DNA of 64,000 nucleotides from NCBI RefSeq assembly GCF_002224285.1, contig NZ_CP022436.1:4836001-4900000 (forward strand), in the 5' to 3' direction. This DNA is from Arthrobacter sp. YN (GTDB lineage: Bacteria > Actinomycetota > Actinomycetes > Actinomycetales > Micrococcaceae). Positions 4,538 to 59,633 of this stretch are shown here, one piece after another (position 1 is the first letter of the stretch; every line of letters starts with the position of its first letter). A model generated the notes under the pieces. The model worked only from the letters and a program-made list of their open reading frames with translations, made no database searches and was not told the origin of the DNA. Made by a program: the position numbers and the translations under genes.

Positions 4538-4553
4538 CCGCCCGCCCAAGGCA

Positions 4554-4593
4554 AGCAGCGTTCGACGGCGGGCTGCCGCCGTCGAACGCTGCT
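4554..4593 (+). terminator. Strong hairpin terminator of the permease-nitrilase operon
   Basis: An 18-bp perfect stem (4554-4571 with 4576-4593) closes a GCTG tetraloop, 17 nt after the nitrilase stop. The stem contains CGACGGCGG/CCGCCGTCG, a core shared with several other terminators in this window. The sequence after it (TCCTCAC) is only mildly T-rich. Confidence 0.85.
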
Positions 4594-4627
4594 TCCTCAC
4601 CCTAGAGAAGATCAGGTTACTTACTTC

Positions 4628-5492: not shown

Positions 5493-5536
5493 CAAGAAGC
5501 GCACGACGGCGGCAGTCCGGCGTCGTGCGCTTCTTG
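5493..5536. terminator. Bidirectional terminator hairpin
   Basis: A 16-bp perfect stem (5493-5508 with 5521-5536, core AAGAAGCGCACGACG) carries a small inner CGG/CCG stem. It lies between the convergent ZIP and DUF6458 genes. The right arm ends in CTTCTTGG, and the left arm reads as AAGAAG in reverse, so a U-rich side exists in both directions. Confidence 0.85.
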
Positions 5537-7592: not shown

Positions 7593-8515
7593 GCACCCGC
7601 AAAGGTGGCCCCATTCCGCCCTGGAGCCTCGCCGTTGCAGCCATGTTCTCGGTGCAGCTCAGCTCCGCCCTTTCGGTGGGCCTCATCGCGGAGGTAGGTG
7701 CGGCTGGAACGGCATGGTTGCGGCTCAGCCTGGGCGCCATCATCTTCCTTGCCATCGCCCGCCCACCGCTGCGATCGGTGCGGCGGCCAGACATCCTGCC
7801 GCTCCTGGGCCTCGGCATCGCGACCGGGCTCATGACCATTATGTTTCTCGCCGCTGTGGAACGGATCCCGTTGGGCACCACCGTCGCCATCGAGTTCCTT
7901 GGCCCATTGACGGTGGCGGCGATCCGCAGCCATAACCGCCGCGCCTTGGCATGGCCGGTGCTGGCGCTGCTGGGAGTAGTCCTGCTGACCGAACCTTGGC
8001 ATGGCCGCGTCGACTTCCTGGGAATTTTGTTCGCGGCCATCGCCGCCGCCGGGTGGGGCGCCTATATCCTGCTGACGCAGCTGATCGGCGACCGTTTCAC
8101 CGGCATCGGGGCGCTCTCGCTGACGGTCCCCATCGCCGCAGTGACGGCCGCCGTCGTCGGCATTCCGCAAGCTGTTGGGCACCTCAACTGGGGCATCCTC
8201 GCAGGCGCCCTGGGCGTCGCCATCCTGATGCCCGTTCTGCCGTTCGTGCTGGAGCTGAAAGCACTGCGCCGGATGACGTCCACGGCTTTCGGCACGCTGA
8301 TGTCGTTGGAACCCGCCTTCGCCGTTCTCCTGGGACTGCTGGTGCTGCACCAGCAACCCACCATCGTCCAGTTCATCGGGATCGCCCTGGTTGTGGTTGC
8401 CGGTGCAGCCTCCCAGCGCGGGGGCGACAGGAAACTGACTCCCTTGGCCGAGCCCACCACCACGGGGCCCACGCCTGAAGCCTTATCCGCCAAGGGCCCC
8501 GGCAAAGGGGCCTGA
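7589..8515 (+). CDS. EamA/DMT-family transporter (RhtA-like exporter)
   Basis: A 308-residue protein with about ten transmembrane helices arranged as two EamA repeats. The second begins near residue 150 (GWGAYILLTQLIGDRF), with the conserved ALRRMTSTAFGTLMSLEPAFA before the last helices. That motif resembles the RhtA/YedA branch of amino-acid or metabolite exporters. Translation starts at GTG 7589, overlapping the XRE-cupin stop. The pair looks like a ligand-responsive export module. The exported compound is unknown. Confidence 0.87.
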   Translation: MSTRKGGPIPPWSLAVAAMFSVQLSSALSVGLIAEVGAAGTAWLRLSLGAIIFLAIARPPLRSVRRPDILPLLGLGIATGLMTIMFLAAVERIPLGTTVAIEFLGPLTVAAIRSHNRRALAWPVLALLGVVLLTEPWHGRVDFLGILFAAIAAAGWGAYILLTQLIGDRFTGIGALSLTVPIAAVTAAVVGIPQAVGHLNWGILAGALGVAILMPVLPFVLELKALRRMTSTAFGTLMSLEPAFAVLLGLLVLHQQPTIVQFIGIALVVVAGAASQRGGDRKLTPLAEPTTTGPTPEALSAKGPGKGA

Positions 8516-8547
8516 CGCACGACGGCGACCTGCCGCCGTCGTGCGTC
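8514..8547. terminator. Bidirectional terminator hairpin with CGACGGCG core
   Basis: A 14-bp stem (8514-8527 with 8534-8547) closes a 6-nt loop and overlaps the EamA stop codon. TCTTGCTTTT follows in the forward direction. It lies between convergent genes and carries the same CGACGGC core as the hairpins at 4554 and 5493. Confidence 0.85.
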
Positions 8548-46610: not shown

Positions 46611-46671
46611 AGTTTTTGTACAGATAGTGCCCCGAATCACGCGTCATTGGGGCACTATCTGTACAAAAACT
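46611..46671. terminator. Very long perfect hairpin, 23-bp stem
   Basis: The 23 bases at 46611-46633 pair perfectly with 46649-46671 around a 15-nt loop. The outer part of each arm is GTTTTTGTAC/GTACAAAAAC, and the inner part ends CCCC/GGGG. It lies 7 nt after the end of the secreted-protein operon and before the FUSC gene. A terminator is the simplest reading, although the T-run is inside the stem. Confidence 0.6.
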
Positions 46672-51488: not shown

Positions 51489-52889
51489 TCAGCATTCGAC
51501 GACGTTGACGGCGAGGCCGCCCATCGCTGTTTCTTTGTACTTATGGGACATGTCCTTGCCCGTTTCCCGCATGGTCACAATGACCTCATCCAACGAGACC
51601 CGGTGTGTTCCGTCGCCCCAGAGCGCCATCTTCGCGGCGTTGATAGCCTTCGCCGCAGCGATCGCGTTCCGCTCAATACACGGAATCTGCACCAACCCCC
51701 CGATCGGATCACACGTCAACCCCAAATTATGTTCCATCGCGATCTCCGCCGCGTTCTCCACCTGCCCCGGCGTACCACCCATCACCTCAGCCAAACCAGC
51801 AGCAGCCATCGACGACGCCGACCCCACCTCACCCTGACACCCCACCTCAGCCCCCGAAATGGAGGCCTGCTCCTTGTACAACACACCCACAGCACCGGCA
51901 GTGAGCAAGAACTTCACCACCACATCGTCCCGGTCCTTTTGGGAGGCCTTGTCCATGCCCGGAGCATAATTCAACGCGTAATACAGCACCGCAGGAATAA
52001 TCCCCGCCGCACCATTGGTCGGCGCCGTCACCACACGGCCACCCGAGGCGTTCTCCTCATTGACGGCCAGGGCGATCAGGTTCACCCACTCCTGCCAATA
52101 CTTCGGATCGTTCCGGTCCTTGTCCTCCTTCAGCAGCCGCTCCAACCAATCAGGAGCACGACGACGAACCCTCAACCCACCAGGCAGGACACCCTCACGC
52201 TTCAAACTGGTTTCAACACAGGCTTCCATCACCGACCAGATATGCAGCAAACCCTCCCGGATCTCCTCCTCCGACCGGGACGCCCGCTCGTTGATGAACA
52301 TGATGTCGCTGATCCCCAAACCCTTCGAGGAGCACCGGCCCATCAACTCCGCCGCTGTCCTAAAAGGCAACGGCAACTCCTTCTTCGACTCCTCCAACTC
52401 CTGCTGAGCCGCGTTCTCCTCACCCTCACGGACAATGAACCCGCCACCGACCGAAAAGAACGTCGCCTCCCGCACGATGTTTCCCTCAGCATCGGAGACA
52501 GCAAACTTCATCCCATTCGTATGCCGCGGCAACACCGTCAACGGATGCAGCACCATATCCCCCACCGCATAGTCCAGGAGCGTGCCGCCGGCCAGGTTGA
52601 GCTTTCCCGTCTCAGCAATGGAATCCAGCCGTTCCTCCACCTCGTCAGGCAGGATCTCCTCGGGGTCGTATCCCTCGAGCCCCAGCAGGACGGCTGTGAA
52701 GGTGCCGTGCCCCTTGCCGGTGGCGGCCAACGATCCATACAGATCGACCCGCAAACCGGCAACGGACTCAAGCACTCCGGACTCACGAAGCTCACGGGCA
52801 AACACCGCCCCGGCGCGCATCGGCCCCACAGTATGAGAGCTCGACGGCCCAATGCCTACAGAGAACAGATCGAAGACCCCAACGGCCAT
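51489..52889 (-). CDS. sdaA: L-serine ammonia-lyase, iron-sulfur type
   Basis: A 466-residue single-chain L-serine dehydratase making pyruvate and ammonia. It starts [27 protein letters not shown], with the family SSSHT motif. Three [4Fe-4S] cysteines are visible in [15 protein letters not shown] and QIPCIERN. The protein ends VVEC, and a C-terminal Cys in this enzyme type folds back onto the cluster. ATG 52889 has GAGGAAAT upstream. It follows glyA in the same direction, so serine from glycine can be drained to pyruvate. Confidence 0.95.
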
Positions 52890-53159
52890 GGCTATTTCCT
52901 CACTAAGTAAAACGACATTGAACCCGCCCCGCCCCCAACAAACGGAACGGACCCCAAACCCCCCTTCGCCGATTCGGGGCTTCGCTGCAAAACCCGGCGC
53001 ACCCACGGCACGTCCCGCAGCACCCCCCGAATCGGACAGAACACCAACGCACTCCCAAACCAACCCAACGCCCGAAGAACACCCCCGGCAGCTGGGCCTA
53101 TTTCTCAGACAAGCGAACCCGAGTCCGGTCCTGAGACGGCGATCAGGCATGCGGCCCTC
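52890..53159 (-). promoter_or_regulatory. sdaA upstream region with a long-range stem
   Basis: CCGATTCGGGG (52969-52979) pairs with CCCCGAATCGG (53025-53035). Inside it, GCTGC (52984-52988) pairs with GCAGC (53017-53021), giving a two-part stem around a 28-nt loop about 80-145 nt before sdaA. It could be a structured leader or a terminator reached from glyA. No gene is apparent in the region. Confidence 0.45.
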
Positions 53160-53254
53160 ATGGGCCTGAGGTCCGGCAGCGGGCGTCCAAGGGAGCATCG
53201 CATCCGCTCAGCGGGTGCCTATGCGACCGAGCCCGCCGAGGACTTCAGGCCCAT
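53160..53254 (-). repeat. 95-nt structured element, copy 1, behind glyA
   Basis: A 15-bp outer stem (53160-53174 with 53240-53254, one G-T pair) encloses a 65-nt core. The core contains a GCGGGC/GCCCGC stem (53179-53184 with 53231-53236) and a hairpin GCATCCGC-TCA-GCGGGTGC (53200-53218). It begins 20 nt after the glyA stop on the transcribed strand. The core matches copy 2 at 58 of 65 positions, while the outer stem differs at five paired positions with base pairing kept. Unknown family. Confidence 0.75.
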
Positions 53255-53274
53255 CGGCCAACGCAACCGAGCGA

Positions 53275-54594
53275 CTAGCTCAGGTTCGCGACTCCCGGGT
53301 ACAGCGGGTGCGCCTTCGCAAGAACGTCAACACGGTGACGCAGCCCGGAAAGGTCCGCGTCGGCGTCGGCGATCAAGGCCTCGGCGATGATGTCCGCCAC
53401 CTCGCGGAAGGCTGCTTCGCCGAAGCCGCGCGTCGCCAACGCCGGAGTGCCGATGCGCAGTCCGGAGGTGACCATGGGCGGGCGGGGGTCGAACGGGACG
53501 GCGTTGCGGTTGACGGTGATGTCGATCGCGGCAAGGCGGTCTTCGGCTTGCTGGCCGTCGAGTTCGCAGTTGCGGAGATCGACAAGGACCAGGTGTACGT
53601 CCGTTCCACCGGAGACGACGCTGATGCCCTTGGCGGCGACGTCGGGCTGGACCAGTCGCTCGGCGAGGATGCGTGCACCGGCGAGGACGCGTTCCTGACG
53701 CTCACGGAACTCCTCCGAGGCGGCGATCTTGAACGCCACAGCCTTGCCGGCGATGACGTGCTCCAGCGGGCCGCCTTGCTGGCCGGGGAACACGGCCGAG
53801 TTGATCTTCTTGGCGATGTCGGCGTCGTTGGAGAGGATGATGCCGCCACGGGGACCGGCGAGGGTCTTGTGCGTGGTGGACGTGGTGACGTGCGCCTGCG
53901 GGACCGGCGAGGGGTGCAGTCCCGCAGCCACCAGGCCGGCGAAGTGGGCCATGTCCACCATGAGGTAGGCGCCCACGGAGTCGGCGATCCGGCGGAACTC
54001 AGCGAAGTCCAGCTGCCGCGCATAGGCGGACCAGCCGGCAACGATCAGCGCAGGTTTGTGCTCCTGTGCCAGGGCCTCAACTTCGGCCATGTCCACCGTG
54101 TGGGTGTCCTCGCGGACGCCGTAGGGAACCACGTTGTAGAGCTTGCCGGAGAAGTTGATGCGCATGCCGTGCGTGAGGTGCCCGCCGTGAGCCAGGTTCA
54201 GGCCCATGATGGTGTCACCGGGCTTGATGAGGGCGTGCATCACCGAGGCGTTGGCCTGGGCACCAGAGTGTGGCTGGACGTTCGCGAACTCAGCACCGAA
54301 AAGGGACTTGATGCGCTCAATCGCCAGCTGCTCGATCACATCGACGTGCTCGCAGCCGCCGTAGTAGCGCTTGCCCGGGTAACCTTCGGCGTACTTGTTG
54401 GTCAGGACCGAGCCTTGGGCCTGCATGACGGCAACGGCCGTGTGGTTCTCCGAGGCGATCATTTCCAGGCCGTCGCGCTGGCGACCCAGTTCGTCGTCGA
54501 TCTTCGCAGCGATCTCAGGATCCAGCTCGGACAGCTGGGCGTCCAACGACGCCGACACCACCTGCTGGTACTCAGTGACAGATACCGGGTTCAC
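53275..54594 (-). CDS. glyA: Serine hydroxymethyltransferase
   Basis: A 439-residue PLP enzyme interconverting serine and glycine with tetrahydrofolate. The PLP lysine lies in [14 protein letters not shown] (about 240), [17 protein letters not shown] is near 80, and the N-terminal [15 protein letters not shown] is standard. GTG 54594 overlaps the gcvH stop (GTGA), so the two are co-translated. In this cluster it consumes methylene-THF released by glycine cleavage. A second glyA may exist elsewhere; not seen here. Confidence 0.95.
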
Positions 54595-54974
54595 AGCTCT
54601 CCACCGTTCGTTGCAGCGTATTCTTCGGCCGACATGAGCGGCCCTTCCTCCGTGGCGGCCACCTTGAACAGCCAGCCCGCGCCGTAAGGATCGTTGTTGA
54701 TGAGGGCGGGATCGGAGACAACGGCGTCGTTGATCTCGGTCACCTCCCCCGTCACGGGCGAGTACAGGTCCGACACCGACTTGGTCGACTCCACCTCGCC
54801 GCAGGTCTCGCCAGCGGTCACCGTCGAACCAACCTCGGGCAGGTCCACATACACAATGTCGCCCAAGGCATCAGCGGCAACCGCGGAAATCCCGATCCCC
54901 ACAGGCCCATCACCATCAGCGGCAACCCACTCGTGCTCAGCCGAGTATTTCAATTCAGCAACTACTTTGCTCAT
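54591..54974 (-). CDS. gcvH: Glycine cleavage system H protein
   Basis: A 127-residue lipoyl carrier. The lipoylation Lys is in [16 protein letters not shown] (about 64), the Glu-Ser-Thr-Lys context is canonical, and the length matches the family. It shuttles the aminomethyl group between GcvP, GcvT and the L protein. ATG 54974 has AAGGAATC upstream. It is separated from gcvT by 172 nt that hold a 95-nt structured element, and overlaps glyA downstream. Confidence 0.95.
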
Positions 54975-55045
54975 CAGATTCCTTCTCTCACTAACTGAAA
55001 CTTTTCAAGATCACCCGCGGCAGGGTAACCATCCCCCCGGCCCCT

Positions 55046-55140
55046 GTGGGAGTGACATCCGGAAGCGGGCGTCCAAGGGAGCATCGCGTCCGCCCAGCGG
55101 GCGCTTCTGCGACCGAGCCCGCGGAGGATGTCACTCCCAC
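55046..55140 (-). repeat. 95-nt structured element, copy 2, behind gcvT
   Basis: The outer stem is perfect over 15 bp (55046-55060 with 55126-55140) and extends by CCC/GGG past one mismatch. The 65-nt core (55061-55125) has the same inner stem (55065-55070 with 55117-55122) and the hairpin GCGTCCGC-CCA-GCGGGCGC (55086-55104). Its G-C pair at the third position is A-T in copy 1. It starts 6 nt after the gcvT stop on the transcribed strand. Confidence 0.75.
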
Positions 55141-55146
55141 CGGGAC

Positions 55147-56295
55147 CTATTTTTGGCGCTTGTAGAACGGCAGCGGCACAACTTCGAACGGTTCGGATTT
55201 GCCGCGCAAGTCCACTTCCACGATCGTGCCCGGCTCTGAATGCTCGACGTCGATATACGCCAAGGCGACCGGGTAACCGAGCGTGGGGCTCGGTTGGCCG
55301 GAGGTGACTTCGCCGATGAGTGAGCCGTCTTTGAGGACCGAGTAGTGTCCGCGGGCGGCGCGGCGTCCGGTGCCCTTGAGGCCCACGAGCTTCTGGCCGA
55401 GAACCGATCCGACGCCGGCTGCCTTGATCGACGTCAGCGCTTCCCGGCCAACGAAGTCGCTTTCCTTGGCCAGGGAAACTACGGGGCCGAGCCCTGCGGT
55501 GTAGGCATTGACGTGGGTGGAAAGCTCGTTGCCGTAGAGGGGCATGCCGGCTTCCAGACGCAGCGAGTCGCGGGCTGCGAGTCCTGCTGGGATGAGGCCG
55601 TGGCCGTCACCTGCTTCGAGCAGTGCTTCCCAGAGGCCCGGGGCGTCGAGGTTCGGGACGTAGATTTCGAAGCCGTCTTCGCCGGTGTAGCCGGTGCGGG
55701 CCAGCAGCAGGTCCTGGGTGCCGCCGTCGAACGTCAGTCCAACCTCAACCGCAGCGTAGTACTTCAGTTCGGTGACCAGCGCGTGCTGATCGGCGGGAAC
55801 CAGGGTCAGCAGGATGGCTTCGGCGTTGGGGCCCTGCACCGCGATCAGTGAGGTCTCCGCTGAGGCATCGTCCACCACGACGTCGAAACCTGCCGCGCGC
55901 TTCCGCAGCGCCGCAGCGACCACCTTGGCGTTGCCCGCGTTCGGGACCACCAGGTACTTGTCCACGCCCTCTTCGGGAGAGGGCCGACGGTAGGTAATGA
56001 GGTCGTCGATGATGCCGCCGTCGGTGTTGCAGATCAGCGAGTACTTCGCTTTGCCCTCGGCGATCGCGGACAACTTGCCTACCAGCGCGTAGTCCAGGAA
56101 GGCAGCCGCGTCCGGGCCGCTGACCCAGACTTCGCCCATGTGGGAGAGGTCGAACAAGCCCGCGGACTTGCGGACGGCGTGGTGCTCGGCGAGCTCCGAC
56201 TCGTACTTCAGGGGCATCTGCCAGCCGCCGAAGTCCGTGAAGGAAGCGCCGGCCTTTTTGTGCTGCTCATAGAGAGCTGTGTAGTTCTCAGACAT
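55147..56295 (-). CDS. gcvT: Glycine cleavage system T protein (aminomethyltransferase)
   Basis: A 382-residue folate-dependent enzyme that releases ammonia from the aminomethyl-lipoyl intermediate and forms methylene-THF. The family markers are FDLSHMGEVWVSGPDAAAFL (about 48), RTGYTGEDGFEIYVP (about 196) and the C-terminal PTLGYPVALAYI. ATG 56295 has AAGGACT upstream and follows the gcvP stop by 11 bases. A 95-nt structured element starts right behind its stop codon. Confidence 0.95.
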   Translation of the reverse strand: MSENYTALYEQHKKAGASFTDFGGWQMPLKYESELAEHHAVRKSAGLFDLSHMGEVWVSGPDAAAFLDYALVGKLSAIAEGKAKYSLICNTDGGIIDDLITYRRPSPEEGVDKYLVVPNAGNAKVVAAALRKRAAGFDVVVDDASAETSLIAVQGPNAEAILLTLVPADQHALVTELKYYAAVEVGLTFDGGTQDLLLARTGYTGEDGFEIYVPNLDAPGLWEALLEAGDGHGLIPAGLAARDSLRLEAGMPLYGNELSTHVNAYTAGLGPVVSLAKESDFVGREALTSIKAAGVGSVLGQKLVGLKGTGRRAARGHYSVLKDGSLIGEVTSGQPSPTLGYPVALAYIDVEHSEPGTIVEVDLRGKSEPFEVVPLPFYKRQK

Positions 56296-56306: not shown

Positions 56307-59168
56307 TTAGTTTTCAAAGTCTTCAAGCGGAGGGCAGGAGCACACAAGATTCCGGTCACCTGCGGCACCGTCGATCCTGCCGACGGGCGGGAAGTACTTG
56401 TCCTGCTTGAGGTGGTGGACGGGGAACGCGGCCTGCTCACGCGGGTAGTCGCGCCCCCAGTCGGAACTGACGACGGCGGCAGCCGTGTGCGGTGCGTTGC
56501 GCAGCGGCGACTTCTCAACAGTGAAATCACCGCTGGCCACCTGCTCGATCTCTGCGCGGATGGTGATCATAGCTTCGATGAAGCGGTCGATCTCGGCCAG
56601 GTCTTCGGACTCCGTCGGCTCCACCATCAACGTGCCCGCCACGGGGAACGCGAGGGTGGGGGCGTGGAAGCCGAAGTCGATCAAGCGCTTGGCCACATCC
56701 TCGGCCGTGACACCCGTGCGGGAGGTCAGTTCACGGAGGTCCAGGATGCACTCGTGCGCCACGAGTCCTCCTTCGCCTGTGTACAGGACGGGGAAGTGCT
56801 CATCCAGTCGGGAGGCAACATAGTTGGCAGCAAGAAGCGCCGACTTGGTGGCTTCCGTCAGACCCTGCCCGCCCATGAGCTTCACATAGGCCCAGGAAAT
56901 CGGGAGGACACCGGCCGAGCCGTAGCGCGAGGCAGAAATGGCCACGCCGTGCCCTTCCTCATGGGACGCTTTGTTCGCGTCGCCCGGCATGAACGGAGCC
57001 AAGTGGGCTTTCGCAGCAACAGGGCCAACACCCGGGCCGCCGCCGCCGTGCGGGATGCAGAAAGTCTTGTGCAGGTTCAGGTGGGACACGTCGCCGCCGA
57101 ACTTGCCCGGCTGGGCGAGCCCAACGAGTGCGTTGAGGTTGGCGCCGTCAACGTAGACCTGGCCGCCGGCCTCGTGGATCGCGTCGCAGACCTCGCGGAC
57201 GTCGGCGTCGTACACACCGTGCGTGGAGGGGTAGGTGATCATGATGCAGGACAGGACGTCTTTGTTGGCCTCGATCTTGGCCGTCAGATCCGCGTGATCG
57301 ATGGTGCCGTCAGCAGCCGTGGCCACCACCACTACCTTCATGCCTGCCAGCACAGCAGACGCTGCATTGGTGCCGTGGGCCGACGCCGGGATCAGGCAGA
57401 CAGTGCGCTGCTCATCACCGCTGGAAAAGTGGTAGCCGCGGATCGCCAACAGACCGGCGAGCTCACCCTGGGAACCGGCATTCGGCTGAATGGAGACCTG
57501 GTCATATCCGGTGATCTCGGTGAGGTCCGCTTCCAGGTCGGAGATCAGCTCGCGCCAACCCTCGGTCTGGGAATCCGGGGCGAACGGGTGGATGGAGGCG
57601 AACTCCGGCCAGGAAATCGCCTCCATCTCAGCGGTGGCGTTCAGCTTCATGGTGCACGAACCCAGCGGGATCATAGTGCGATCCAGTGCGAGGTCCCGGT
57701 CCGACAGCTTGCGGATATAGCGCAACAACTGCGTCTCGGAACGGTGCGTGTTGAACACTGGGTGCTGCAGGAAATCGGACGAACGGACCACGTCAGCGGG
57801 CAGTTCGAACCCGGAGGCGTCCCCTACCGGGCCGGCACCAAAGGCGACGGCTACCGCTGAGAGGACCTCCGGCGTCGTGGTTTCATCAACGGAGACACCA
57901 ACGGTGTCGGCATCGATGAGGCGCAGGTTGATGCCGCGGGCTTCGGCTGCTGCGATGACCTTGTCGGCCTTGCCCGGGACACGGACAGTGAGGGTGTCGA
58001 AGAAGGACTCGGAGACAAGTTCCCGGCCGGCCTTTTGCAGGGCCGAAGCCAAAACACGGGCGTGTCCGTGGACGGTCTCGGCGATCGATTTCAAGCCCTC
58101 GGGACCGTGGTACACCGCGTACATCGAGGCGACAATGGCGAGCAATGCCTGCGCGGTGCAGATGTTGGACGTGGCCTTTTCGCGGCGGATGTGCTGCTCG
58201 CGGGTCTGGAGTGCCAAACGGTACGCAGGGACGCCGGCGTTGTCTTTGGAGACGCCCACGATGCGGCCGGGAAGCGTGCGCTCCATGCCTTCGCGGACGG
58301 CCATGTAGGCAGCATGCGGGCCGCCAAAGAACAGCGGGACACCGAAGCGCTGCGCAGTTCCGACGGCGATGTCCGCACCTTGTTCGCCCGGAGGCGTGAT
58401 GAGGGTGAGCGCCAGCAAATCCGCGGCCACCGTGACCAGTGCTCCGCGTTCCTTGGCGTCAGCAATCACAGCGGTGTGGTCGAAAACCCGGCCCGAAACG
58501 CCGGGCTGCTGCAGGACGATGCCGTTGATGTCGCCGTCGGGAAGCCCGGCCGAAAGGTCAGAAATCTGAACTTCGAAGCCCAGCGCCTCGGCGCGGCCCT
58601 TCACGATCGCGATGGTCTGCGGGAGGAGGTCCGCGTCCAGGACAGTCTTGCCGTCCTTGGCAGTTTTGTTCTTGTTGGCGCGGCGCATCAGCAGCACAGC
58701 TTCGGCAACGGCGGTGGCTTCATCCAACAACGAGGCGTTGGCTACGGGAAGTCCGGTGAGGTCCTGGACCATGGTCTGGAAGTTGAGCAGCGCCTCAAGG
58801 CGGCCCTGCGAAATTTCAGGCTGGTACGGCGTGTAGGCCGTGTACCAAGCGGGAGCTTCCAGGATGTTGCGGCGGATCACCGGGGGCGTCACGGTGTCGT
58901 AGTAGCCCTGACCGATCATCTGGACAGCGGTCTTGTTTTTGGACGCGAGCTTGCGGAGCTCGGCGAGGACCTGCACCTCGGTGAGGGCGTCGTTTCCACT
59001 CGAAAGCCTAAGTGCAGCTTCCTGGCGGATGGAATCGGGGACGGCGACGTCTACCAGGCCGTCGACAGAGTCGTAGCCGATGGCCTTGAGCATGGTGTCA
59101 ACGTCGGCTTGGCGGCGGGCGCCAATGTGCCGGTCCGCGAAGGCGGTGGGGGTTGATTGAACAGTCAA
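56307..59168 (-). CDS. gcvP: Glycine dehydrogenase (decarboxylating), P protein
   Basis: A 953-residue PLP enzyme that decarboxylates glycine and loads the aminomethyl group onto GcvH. It has the usual two-half architecture in one chain: [15 protein letters not shown] at the N-terminus, and the PLP lysine in [17 protein letters not shown] (about 700). I prefer TTG 59168 as start because GGAG lies six bases before it; ATG 59180 in the same frame contains that site and is the alternative. First gene of the cluster, preceded by a tandem glycine riboswitch. Confidence 0.94.
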
Positions 59169-59231
59169 GAGGAACTCCATGATTCAGGCGCCCAGTGAGC
59201 GCCACGATGATGTGGGGTTCCTCCCCGCTCT

Positions 59232-59412
59232 GTATTGGACCTGAGAGATTCCGCAGGAATGGTTGCCTGCTTGCACCGTCGGTGAGCCCGGTTGCCCGGA
59301 CTGCTTTCCAGAGTTGCCTAACCGCGGCGGTACATGGGCCTGAGAGATTCCTGGGGAGGATTTGCTCCTACGGCGCCTGACTGGATGTACCGGCAGGACT
59401 CTCCCGCCGCAG
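59232..59412 (-). ncRNA. Tandem glycine riboswitch upstream of gcvP
   Basis: Two glycine aptamers lie on the transcribed strand. Aptamer 1 (about 59412-59338) reads GGCGGGAGAG ... GCGCCGTAGGAGCAAATCC ... AATCTCTCAGG. Aptamer 2 (about 59315-59239) has the GACGGTGCAAGCAGGCAACC core and again ends GGAATCTCTCAGGT. This pair of conserved blocks is diagnostic. It should turn gcvP expression on when glycine is plentiful. A likely promoter is TTGCGC (59480-59475) and TATGGT (59456-59451). Confidence 0.93.
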
Positions 59413-59633
59413 ATCAAAAGCGTTGCGTCACGATGAGTGACACGCTTCACACCATAGCGGGTTGTTTTGAAAAAGCGCAAGCAAGGTGTGGCTACTTCCC
59501 ACCAACCCTCTCTCACTTCCCAAGCCCTTCCCACCAACCGTCTCTCACATACCGCTTACACCGGCTGGAAACCCCGGAGTGGTATTTTGATCTCTGCTGG
59601 AGGCAGACACTGCACCTATTCGGAGGATCATCC
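59413..59633. promoter_or_regulatory. Divergent promoter region of gcvP and mscL, with a 22-bp direct repeat
   Basis: It contains the gcvP promoter described with the riboswitch. Toward mscL, a 22-bp direct repeat reading CTTCCCACCAACCCTCTCTC then AC (59495-59516) recurs at 59527-59548 with one mismatch, 32 bp apart. The repeat may bind a regulator on one face of the helix (three turns). Confidence 0.45.

Follow-up and report, generated by a model that had tools for sequence, protein, structure and literature searches.

Small palindromic repeats are common in bacterial genomes, and the reason why their hairpins persist is often unclear. REP and BIME sequences are palindromes found near gene ends and are linked to a RAYT transposase. 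They are extragenic and often occur as inverted pairs. The RPE elements of Rickettsia, as reviewed in PMC2229807, are small hairpin-forming repeats with open reading frames, which lie in genes as well as between them and for which a 12-bp terminal inverted repeat is listed. The same review describes the ERIC, NEMIS and YPAL repeats of approximately 100 to 170 nt, which form long stem-loop transcripts co-transcribed with their neighbors, and states that the orientation of ERIC matters. A RepRanger survey of putative REPs (PMC12306157) includes Arthrobacter livingstonensis in a table with the figures 5,512 and 705.

Here we describe a family of hairpin-forming repeats represented by two elements in the glycine/serine gene cluster of an Arthrobacter genome. 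The window is the whole 64-kb stretch of DNA analyzed. E+ denotes the strand of the element that lies on the + strand of the window and E- the complementary strand. As in the REP and BIME sequences of E. coli, the palindromes occur at gene ends and include inverted pairs in one gap. Unlike them, the family lacks a Y1/RAYT transposase in 203 of 204 genomes, has copies within genes and follows another hairpin plan. The RAYT/Y1 domain (PF01797, E<=1e-6) was identified in a single one of these genomes of the genus by a search that was positive in an E. coli control, which makes a RAYT-driven REP unlikely as the general cause. Compared by description with the RPE, and without claiming a shared origin, the Arthrobacter repeat also lies in frame inside unrelated protein genes. 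It differs in being GC-rich and restricted to the Arthrobacter group, in having variable outer arms and a fixed inner motif, and in its strand-biased fold and its presence in both orientations in one coding site. ERIC, NEMIS and YPAL are stem-loop miniature repeats of a similar kind. No fixed termini were seen in the Arthrobacter family, whose ends and outer arms vary around a fixed core.

The family looks like a new REP/RPE-like group without a RAYT transposase. The search of the open-access literature found no account of it. The accessible part of the RepRanger paper names no such family, fold or covariation, and copies may be among the predictions for A. livingstonensis. An earlier note on this DNA had offered several labels, of which "REP-like element" is the nearest. 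Readings as a glycine-specific RNA or a canonical terminator were rejected. We conclude that the elements are probably dispersed palindromic miniature repeats of Arthrobacter and its near relatives, with a fixed E+ hairpin, a mobile-like spread, and survival where they are tolerated or useful.

Two covariance models were used. R1 was built from 20 long copies found by BLAST in this genome and its relatives (20 of 29 loci; short and incomplete copies and one diverged copy were left out). R2 derives from 39 copies of the short form, none of them from the window, that had been found with R1, which favors paired arms. Gene context was read with a custom codon-usage gene finder trained on six window genes, whose predicted starts are occasionally wrong.

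Table 1. Positions in the window of the two elements, the parts of the copy 2 hairpin, and the cluster genes
Feature	Position	Strand	Remarks
Long-form element copy 1	53160..53254	+ (E+)	R1 match 53150-53264, 119.5 bits; R2 E 2.9e-12
Long-form element copy 2	55046..55140	+ (E+)	R1 match 55036-55150, 120.6 bits; R2 E 3.7e-13
Copy 2 extended stem	55039..55147	+	22-nt arms 55039-55060/55126-55147, 91% complementary
Copy 2 P1 arms	55046-55060/55126-55140	+	
Copy 2 internal loop	55061-55064/55123-55125	+	GGAA/GGA
Copy 2 P2	55065-55070/55117-55122	+	
Copy 2 tandem G-A	55079-55080/55111-55112	+	
Copy 2 P3	55081-55084/55107-55110	+	
Copy 2 P4 hairpin	55086-55093/55097-55104	+	
sdaA-type serine dehydratase	51489..52889	-	PF03313 + PF03315; start 52889 chosen by us; downstream of copy 1
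glyA, 439 aa	53275..54594	-	PF00464
gcvH, 127 aa	54591..54974	-	PF01597; overlaps glyA
gcvT, 382 aa	55147..56295	-	PF01571
gcvP	56307..59180	-	PF02347; first gene of the cluster
Glycine riboswitch aptamer	59318..59416	-	RF00504, 65.6 bits; upstream of gcvP

The two elements share one structural plan, and each forms a single long hairpin on E+ (Table 1). A letter-by-letter recheck agreed with the earlier description of the pair. Both copies are 95 nt long and identically oriented, their 65-nt cores are identical at 58 of 65 positions, and the outer stems carry matched changes at pairs 1 (A-T/G-C), 6 (C-G/A-T), 7 (C-G/G-C), 11 (G-T/C-G) and 12 (G-C/A-T). Over their whole length 78 of 95 positions agree. 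Folding of the E+ RNA gave z scores of -7.7 and -8.1 against dinucleotide shuffles, and none of 200 shuffles was equally stable for either copy. Both strands fold far beyond shuffles, with -65.6 and -66.5 kcal/mol for E+ versus -58.7 and -59.3 kcal/mol for E-. R2 recovers both elements, on the + strand only, and a scan of the window with this model gave no other match at E up to 1.

The cluster genes gcvP, gcvT, gcvH, glyA, sdaA and lipA, with identities supported by Pfam, are all on the - strand, so their mRNA carries E-. Copy 2 occupies the gap between gcvT and gcvH, 6 nt from the gcvT stop (TAG), and its extended stem touches the last base of that stop codon. Copy 1 follows the glyA stop (TAG) by 20 nt and lies ahead of sdaA; both spacings are as first reported. 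BLAST against the genome itself placed copies at five positions. Two are those of the window, two more follow gcvT2 and gcvH2 in another gcv cluster, at 1.098 Mb, and the last, at 0.98 Mb, is a shorter relative. The second cluster, gcvPT-gcvH-sdaA at 1.094-1.101 Mb (L006), is diverged from the first and has a glycine riboswitch of its own. The riboswitch upstream of gcvP is a separate known element and the sole Rfam match in the window. The earlier note had not recognized the family, and the Rfam search likewise gave no match to the elements. At the gathering score only glycine riboswitches were returned for the window, L006, L007 and eight further loci, and nothing relevant appeared around the elements at E<=10.

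The family extends well beyond this cluster. Of 206 genomes of the genus, 199 have R1 matches at E<=0.01, with 1 to 17 per genome, and 7 have none; further copies with paired arms, for which the earlier note proposed a search, are widespread. In this genome 12 copies reach E<1e-3 and one more has E 0.026, and they adjoin other genes too, contrary to a confinement to the glycine/serine cluster. Twelve chosen genomes have 7 to 27 copies each at E<=0.001. In a sample of the order, which also includes non-matching members of the genus, R1 matched 6 of 297 genomes, all in a single genus out of 94. R2 matched 83 of 395 genomes and 4 of 32 genera of the family Micrococcaceae. Clear matches beyond the genus are limited to one further genus of that family (four genomes, best E 3.6e-15 to 1.2e-7); two more genera are represented by four weak single matches, uninspected, at E 1e-4 to 8e-4. 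In a scan of named genomes, at least 80 loci are among the matches listed, 71 of them in Arthrobacter, Pseudarthrobacter or Paenarthrobacter and 9 in other bacteria; R1 (E<=0.01) matches 71 of these 71 Arthrobacter-group loci and 0 of the 9 others. Many copies occupy the same orthologous sites across species, and copy counts are therefore not independent.

The copies occur in two forms of one plan, a long form (that of the window) and a short form, to which nearly all the non-gcv copies examined belong. On E+ the plan comprises, from the outside in, the outer stem P1, an internal loop GGNA/NGA, the six-pair P2, a bulged G with a UC/GA pair step, a YAA bulge, a two-pair step GS/SC, and a tandem G-A. 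The apex consists of P3-P4 in the long form and of one closing pair with a GNA triloop in the short form. The inner motif may resemble kink-turn and UAA/GAN motifs; GNA loops of the d(GCGAAGC) type are stable. The closing pair in 97 short cores is G-C (74), C-G (20), A-T (2) or C-C (1), and 94 have the GNA triloop. The internal loop was compared in 202 copies, a set in which at least 7 of 12 arm pairs were required (8 of 210 dropped), and 198 of them have one of three matched loop combinations (90, 66 and 42). These loop counts, like the pairing counts below, treat related copies as if independent.

The arms covary. In the 20 long copies 91.3% of 820 cells are paired, and the covariation of 0.293 compares with 0.117 when shuffled (reached in 0 of 500) and at most 0.068 when slid. 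The 39 short copies have 93.4% of 1053 cells paired and a covariation of 0.500, versus 0.143 shuffled (0 of 500) and at most 0.111 slid; the number of their pairs changed on both sides, a weaker measure, is reached by 25 of 500 shuffles. Because these sets had been found through similarity or a structure model, the pairing test was repeated on copies identified by the core pattern only, with no arm filter. This gave 87 matches in 80 loci among the matches listed. Of these, 67 were used, 19 having no readable closing arm (9 in other bacteria, 10 in Arthrobacter-group loci) and 1 being a duplicate. Among the matches listed, 86.6% of outer pairs 3-15 in the 67 copies are standard, versus 58.9% on average and 62.9% at most when the arms were dealt among copies.

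The strand on which the fold is favored can be read from wobble pairs, as G.T on E+ corresponds to the mismatch A.C on E-. The outer 15 pairs of the 202 copies have 243 G.T versus 65 A.C on E+. The excess peaks at pairs 4-6, is absent at 10 and 15 and is reversed beyond 17; it is concentrated in the inner six pairs of the outer stem, near the core. G.T exceeds A.C on E+ in 8 of 8 context classes, including the 97 copies after stop codons, where the mRNA is E- (98 versus 36). Thinning of the 202 copies to 79 representatives left 89 versus 26 (p 3e-9), with 43 versus 21 at pairs 7-15 alone (p 0.008). The thinned 3'-end E- copies have 34 versus 9 (16 versus 7 at pairs 7-15 alone, p 0.09), and the thinned coding copies in E+ sense are tied at pairs 7-15, 5 versus 5. 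The pattern-only copies among the matches listed show 84 versus 21 (p 4e-10) and, thinned to 41, 51 versus 12 (24 versus 11 at pairs 7-15, p 0.04). For the 20 long copies found by BLAST, the counts over the 15 pairs are only 17 versus 9. The E+ fold thus appears to be favored regardless of the direction of transcription. This speaks against the suggestion that the gcv mRNA carries a 3'-UTR element, as it is folding of the other (+) strand that the wobbles favor in all context classes. Of 115 copies from 8 genomes, 84 have E- co-directional with replication (p 8e-7), a figure that is confounded with gene orientation, counts related copies as independent, uses rounded sizes for three genomes, and includes 13 of 14 matches of this genome (one shadow dropped).

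Copies follow stops, precede starts, separate convergent genes or lie in frame within three kinds of gene. Of 32 gcv loci from 25 genomes, 25 contain at least one element and 7 contain none. Placement there was read from 40 of 46 matches at a threshold of E 0.05, a few of them weak, after removal of six reverse-strand shadows. All 24 E- copies are nearest the upstream stop, at -6 to 77 nt from it. All 16 E+ copies lie 27-74 nt ahead of the next start and 15 are nearest to it; the remaining one nearly fills its gap. Several gcv gaps hold an E- and an E+ copy together, tail to tail. The CitMHS/gatC gap of other species shows the same placement, with both copies at L167. Inverted pairs in one gap recur (e.g., L342, L343, L345, L346, L349, L353 and L354), alongside single, tandem and in-gene copies. 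The context of the named loci was read from 92 of 97 match rows, leaving out four shadows and one cut-off match. Unrelated neighbors of the family include topA, gatC, a Crp-type regulator, a PASTA kinase and DUF885. In our reading most copies in this genome lie just past stops in E- sense. Exceptions to the placement are a copy of this genome and L146, both of which directly precede an S58 peptidase gene in E- sense, L138, which is reversed in the topA/sseB gap, and L176, which follows a stop in E+ sense. As a separate observation, one glyA/sdaA gap (L106 1793-2546, genome G089) contains four long-form copies approximately 210 bp apart.

One in-gene site is a linker of the S58 peptidase. Among the matches listed, 15 of 80 named loci have a short copy in frame within this gene; 12 of these copies are E+ relative to the gene and 3 have the reverse orientation. 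The identity of the gene was confirmed by PF03576 in 5 of 5 loci run, including all 3 reversed ones. In 30 genomes of the genus, compared by eye with one locus unreadable, the linker holds whole copies in either orientation, half-elements, other palindromes or none, and that of this genome holds a half-element. The arms within the coding sequence remain complementary between species, also by eye. The linkers, which are too diverged, revealed no target-site duplication and no clean pair of empty and occupied sites. The arms may derive either from a palindrome already present or from a flank copied in inverted form. Other palindrome-like repeats, of the TTTCGAC/GTCGAAA type by eye, occupy the linker in two species (L251, L253), and the site may therefore attract insertions of several repeat families. 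In-frame elements also occur in two genomes in an E1-E2 ATPase gene, for which a heavy-metal domain was identified in one of the two, and in a DUF4194 gene of this genome; the ATPase and DUF4194 copies are read in one and the same frame. The peptidase and metal ATPase copies illustrate the way in which repeats of this type extend proteins by short peptides. A different palindrome (GTCCGGGTTCCCTGACCGAGCTTGCGAGGTTAGGG) is nested in the apical loop of the element at L163 1786-1931, L172 3991-4135 and L353 1120-1292, and exact copies of it are present in 9 of 376 loci.

The favored reading, of dispersed repeats that would have spread like a small mobile element of the REP, ERIC or RPE kind, is based on the fold, strand, position and in-gene features together. 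The mobilizing machinery would probably recognize the folded E+ strand. Copies would then survive mainly where a hairpin is tolerated or useful: after stops, tens of bases before starts, in convergent gaps and in flexible protein linkers. No mobilizer was found, and many orthologous sites hold a copy in more than one species, both of which count against mobility. A more specific version is possible and is put forward tentatively: a structure-recognized, non-RAYT element in which the folded E+ single strand itself (ssDNA or a dedicated RNA) is selected, the outer stem drifts or derives from the target, and the near-invariant inner motif (GGNA/NGA, YAA, tandem G-A, GNA) is read by an enzyme or binding protein of the Arthrobacter group. 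The hairpin in the gcv mRNA would probably define where gcvPT and gcvH-glyA end, through a block to 3'-5' exonucleases, lower read-through, or both, and from its position such a boundary role in this cluster is plausible. Taken as the origin of the whole family, a boundary hairpin selected by the host is more doubtful. In this view the element would terminate transcripts or block RNases past gene ends, a sister version would serve in leaders, a host factor would bind the core, and mobility would be incidental. The spacing of E- from stops and of E+ from starts in the gcv gaps, its repetition in the CitMHS/gatC gap, the copies between convergent genes, the same-site copies in many species and, in our reading, the prevalence of E- just past stops in this genome all agree with it, as does a mild excess of T after E- (0.228 versus 0.176 background; five or more T in 8 nt in 13 of 201 versus 2%). 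However, a TTTT within 12 nt follows E- in only 6 of 201 cases (2 of 202 after E+), and with no real U-tract a canonical intrinsic terminator was rejected. The wobbles of the 3'-end copies also favor the strand absent from the mRNA, before and after thinning, and in-frame copies lie within genes in both orientations.

Mutational upkeep could in principle account for the paired arms. Template switching during replication between inverted repeats is reported to homogenize arms and invert spacers (PMC8604942), and dispersed palindromes could be maintained in this manner with no selection on the fold. The orientation differences at the S58 and topA/sseB sites and the arms that stay complementary within S58 genes fit this explanation. 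It should nevertheless erase the imperfect internal loop, which nearly all copies keep in one of its three matched forms, and it predicts neither the apical G-C/C-G/A-T swap nor the E+ wobble excess. In our reading three similar copies after glyA (L013 in G016, L017 in G007, L011 in G021) also differ by single-sided arm changes and not by perfectly corrected pairs. We regard upkeep by itself as improbable, and template switching may still help to keep arms matched and flip spacers. The earlier note had argued that compensating changes imply selection on the fold. Paired changes do conserve the fold, but the argument was too quick for the outer stem, where template switching can have the same effect; the inner motif together with the strand-biased wobbles is the stronger evidence. 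A regulatory RNA or riboswitch-like element specific to glycine and serine is very improbable. The BLAST-found long copies are almost only in gcv/glyA/sdaA gaps (exception L018), and a glycine riboswitch lies beside the elements in both clusters of this genome. Yet the element is a single hairpin with copies inside the S58 peptidase and ATPase genes, and this candidate was rejected because copies adjoin the unrelated genes listed above.

With approximately 200 related genomes, in which variable ends, a fixed core and the strand of the favored fold can all be read, it becomes testable whether such repeats are kept as transcript hairpins, as substrates of a mobilizing enzyme, or through replication errors. 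For annotation, such hairpins should not be labeled terminators or gcv regulatory RNAs by default. Other palindromes were seen in the window. Three near-perfect hairpins (4553-4594, 5493-5536 and 8514-8547) have a CGACGGCG-type inner stem in common and lie at or just past a predicted gene end; they may form a second family of hairpins. At 46611-46671, two genes predicted on the - strand flank a perfect inverted repeat of 23 bp, which has AT-rich ends and resembles a strong terminator of the ordinary kind.
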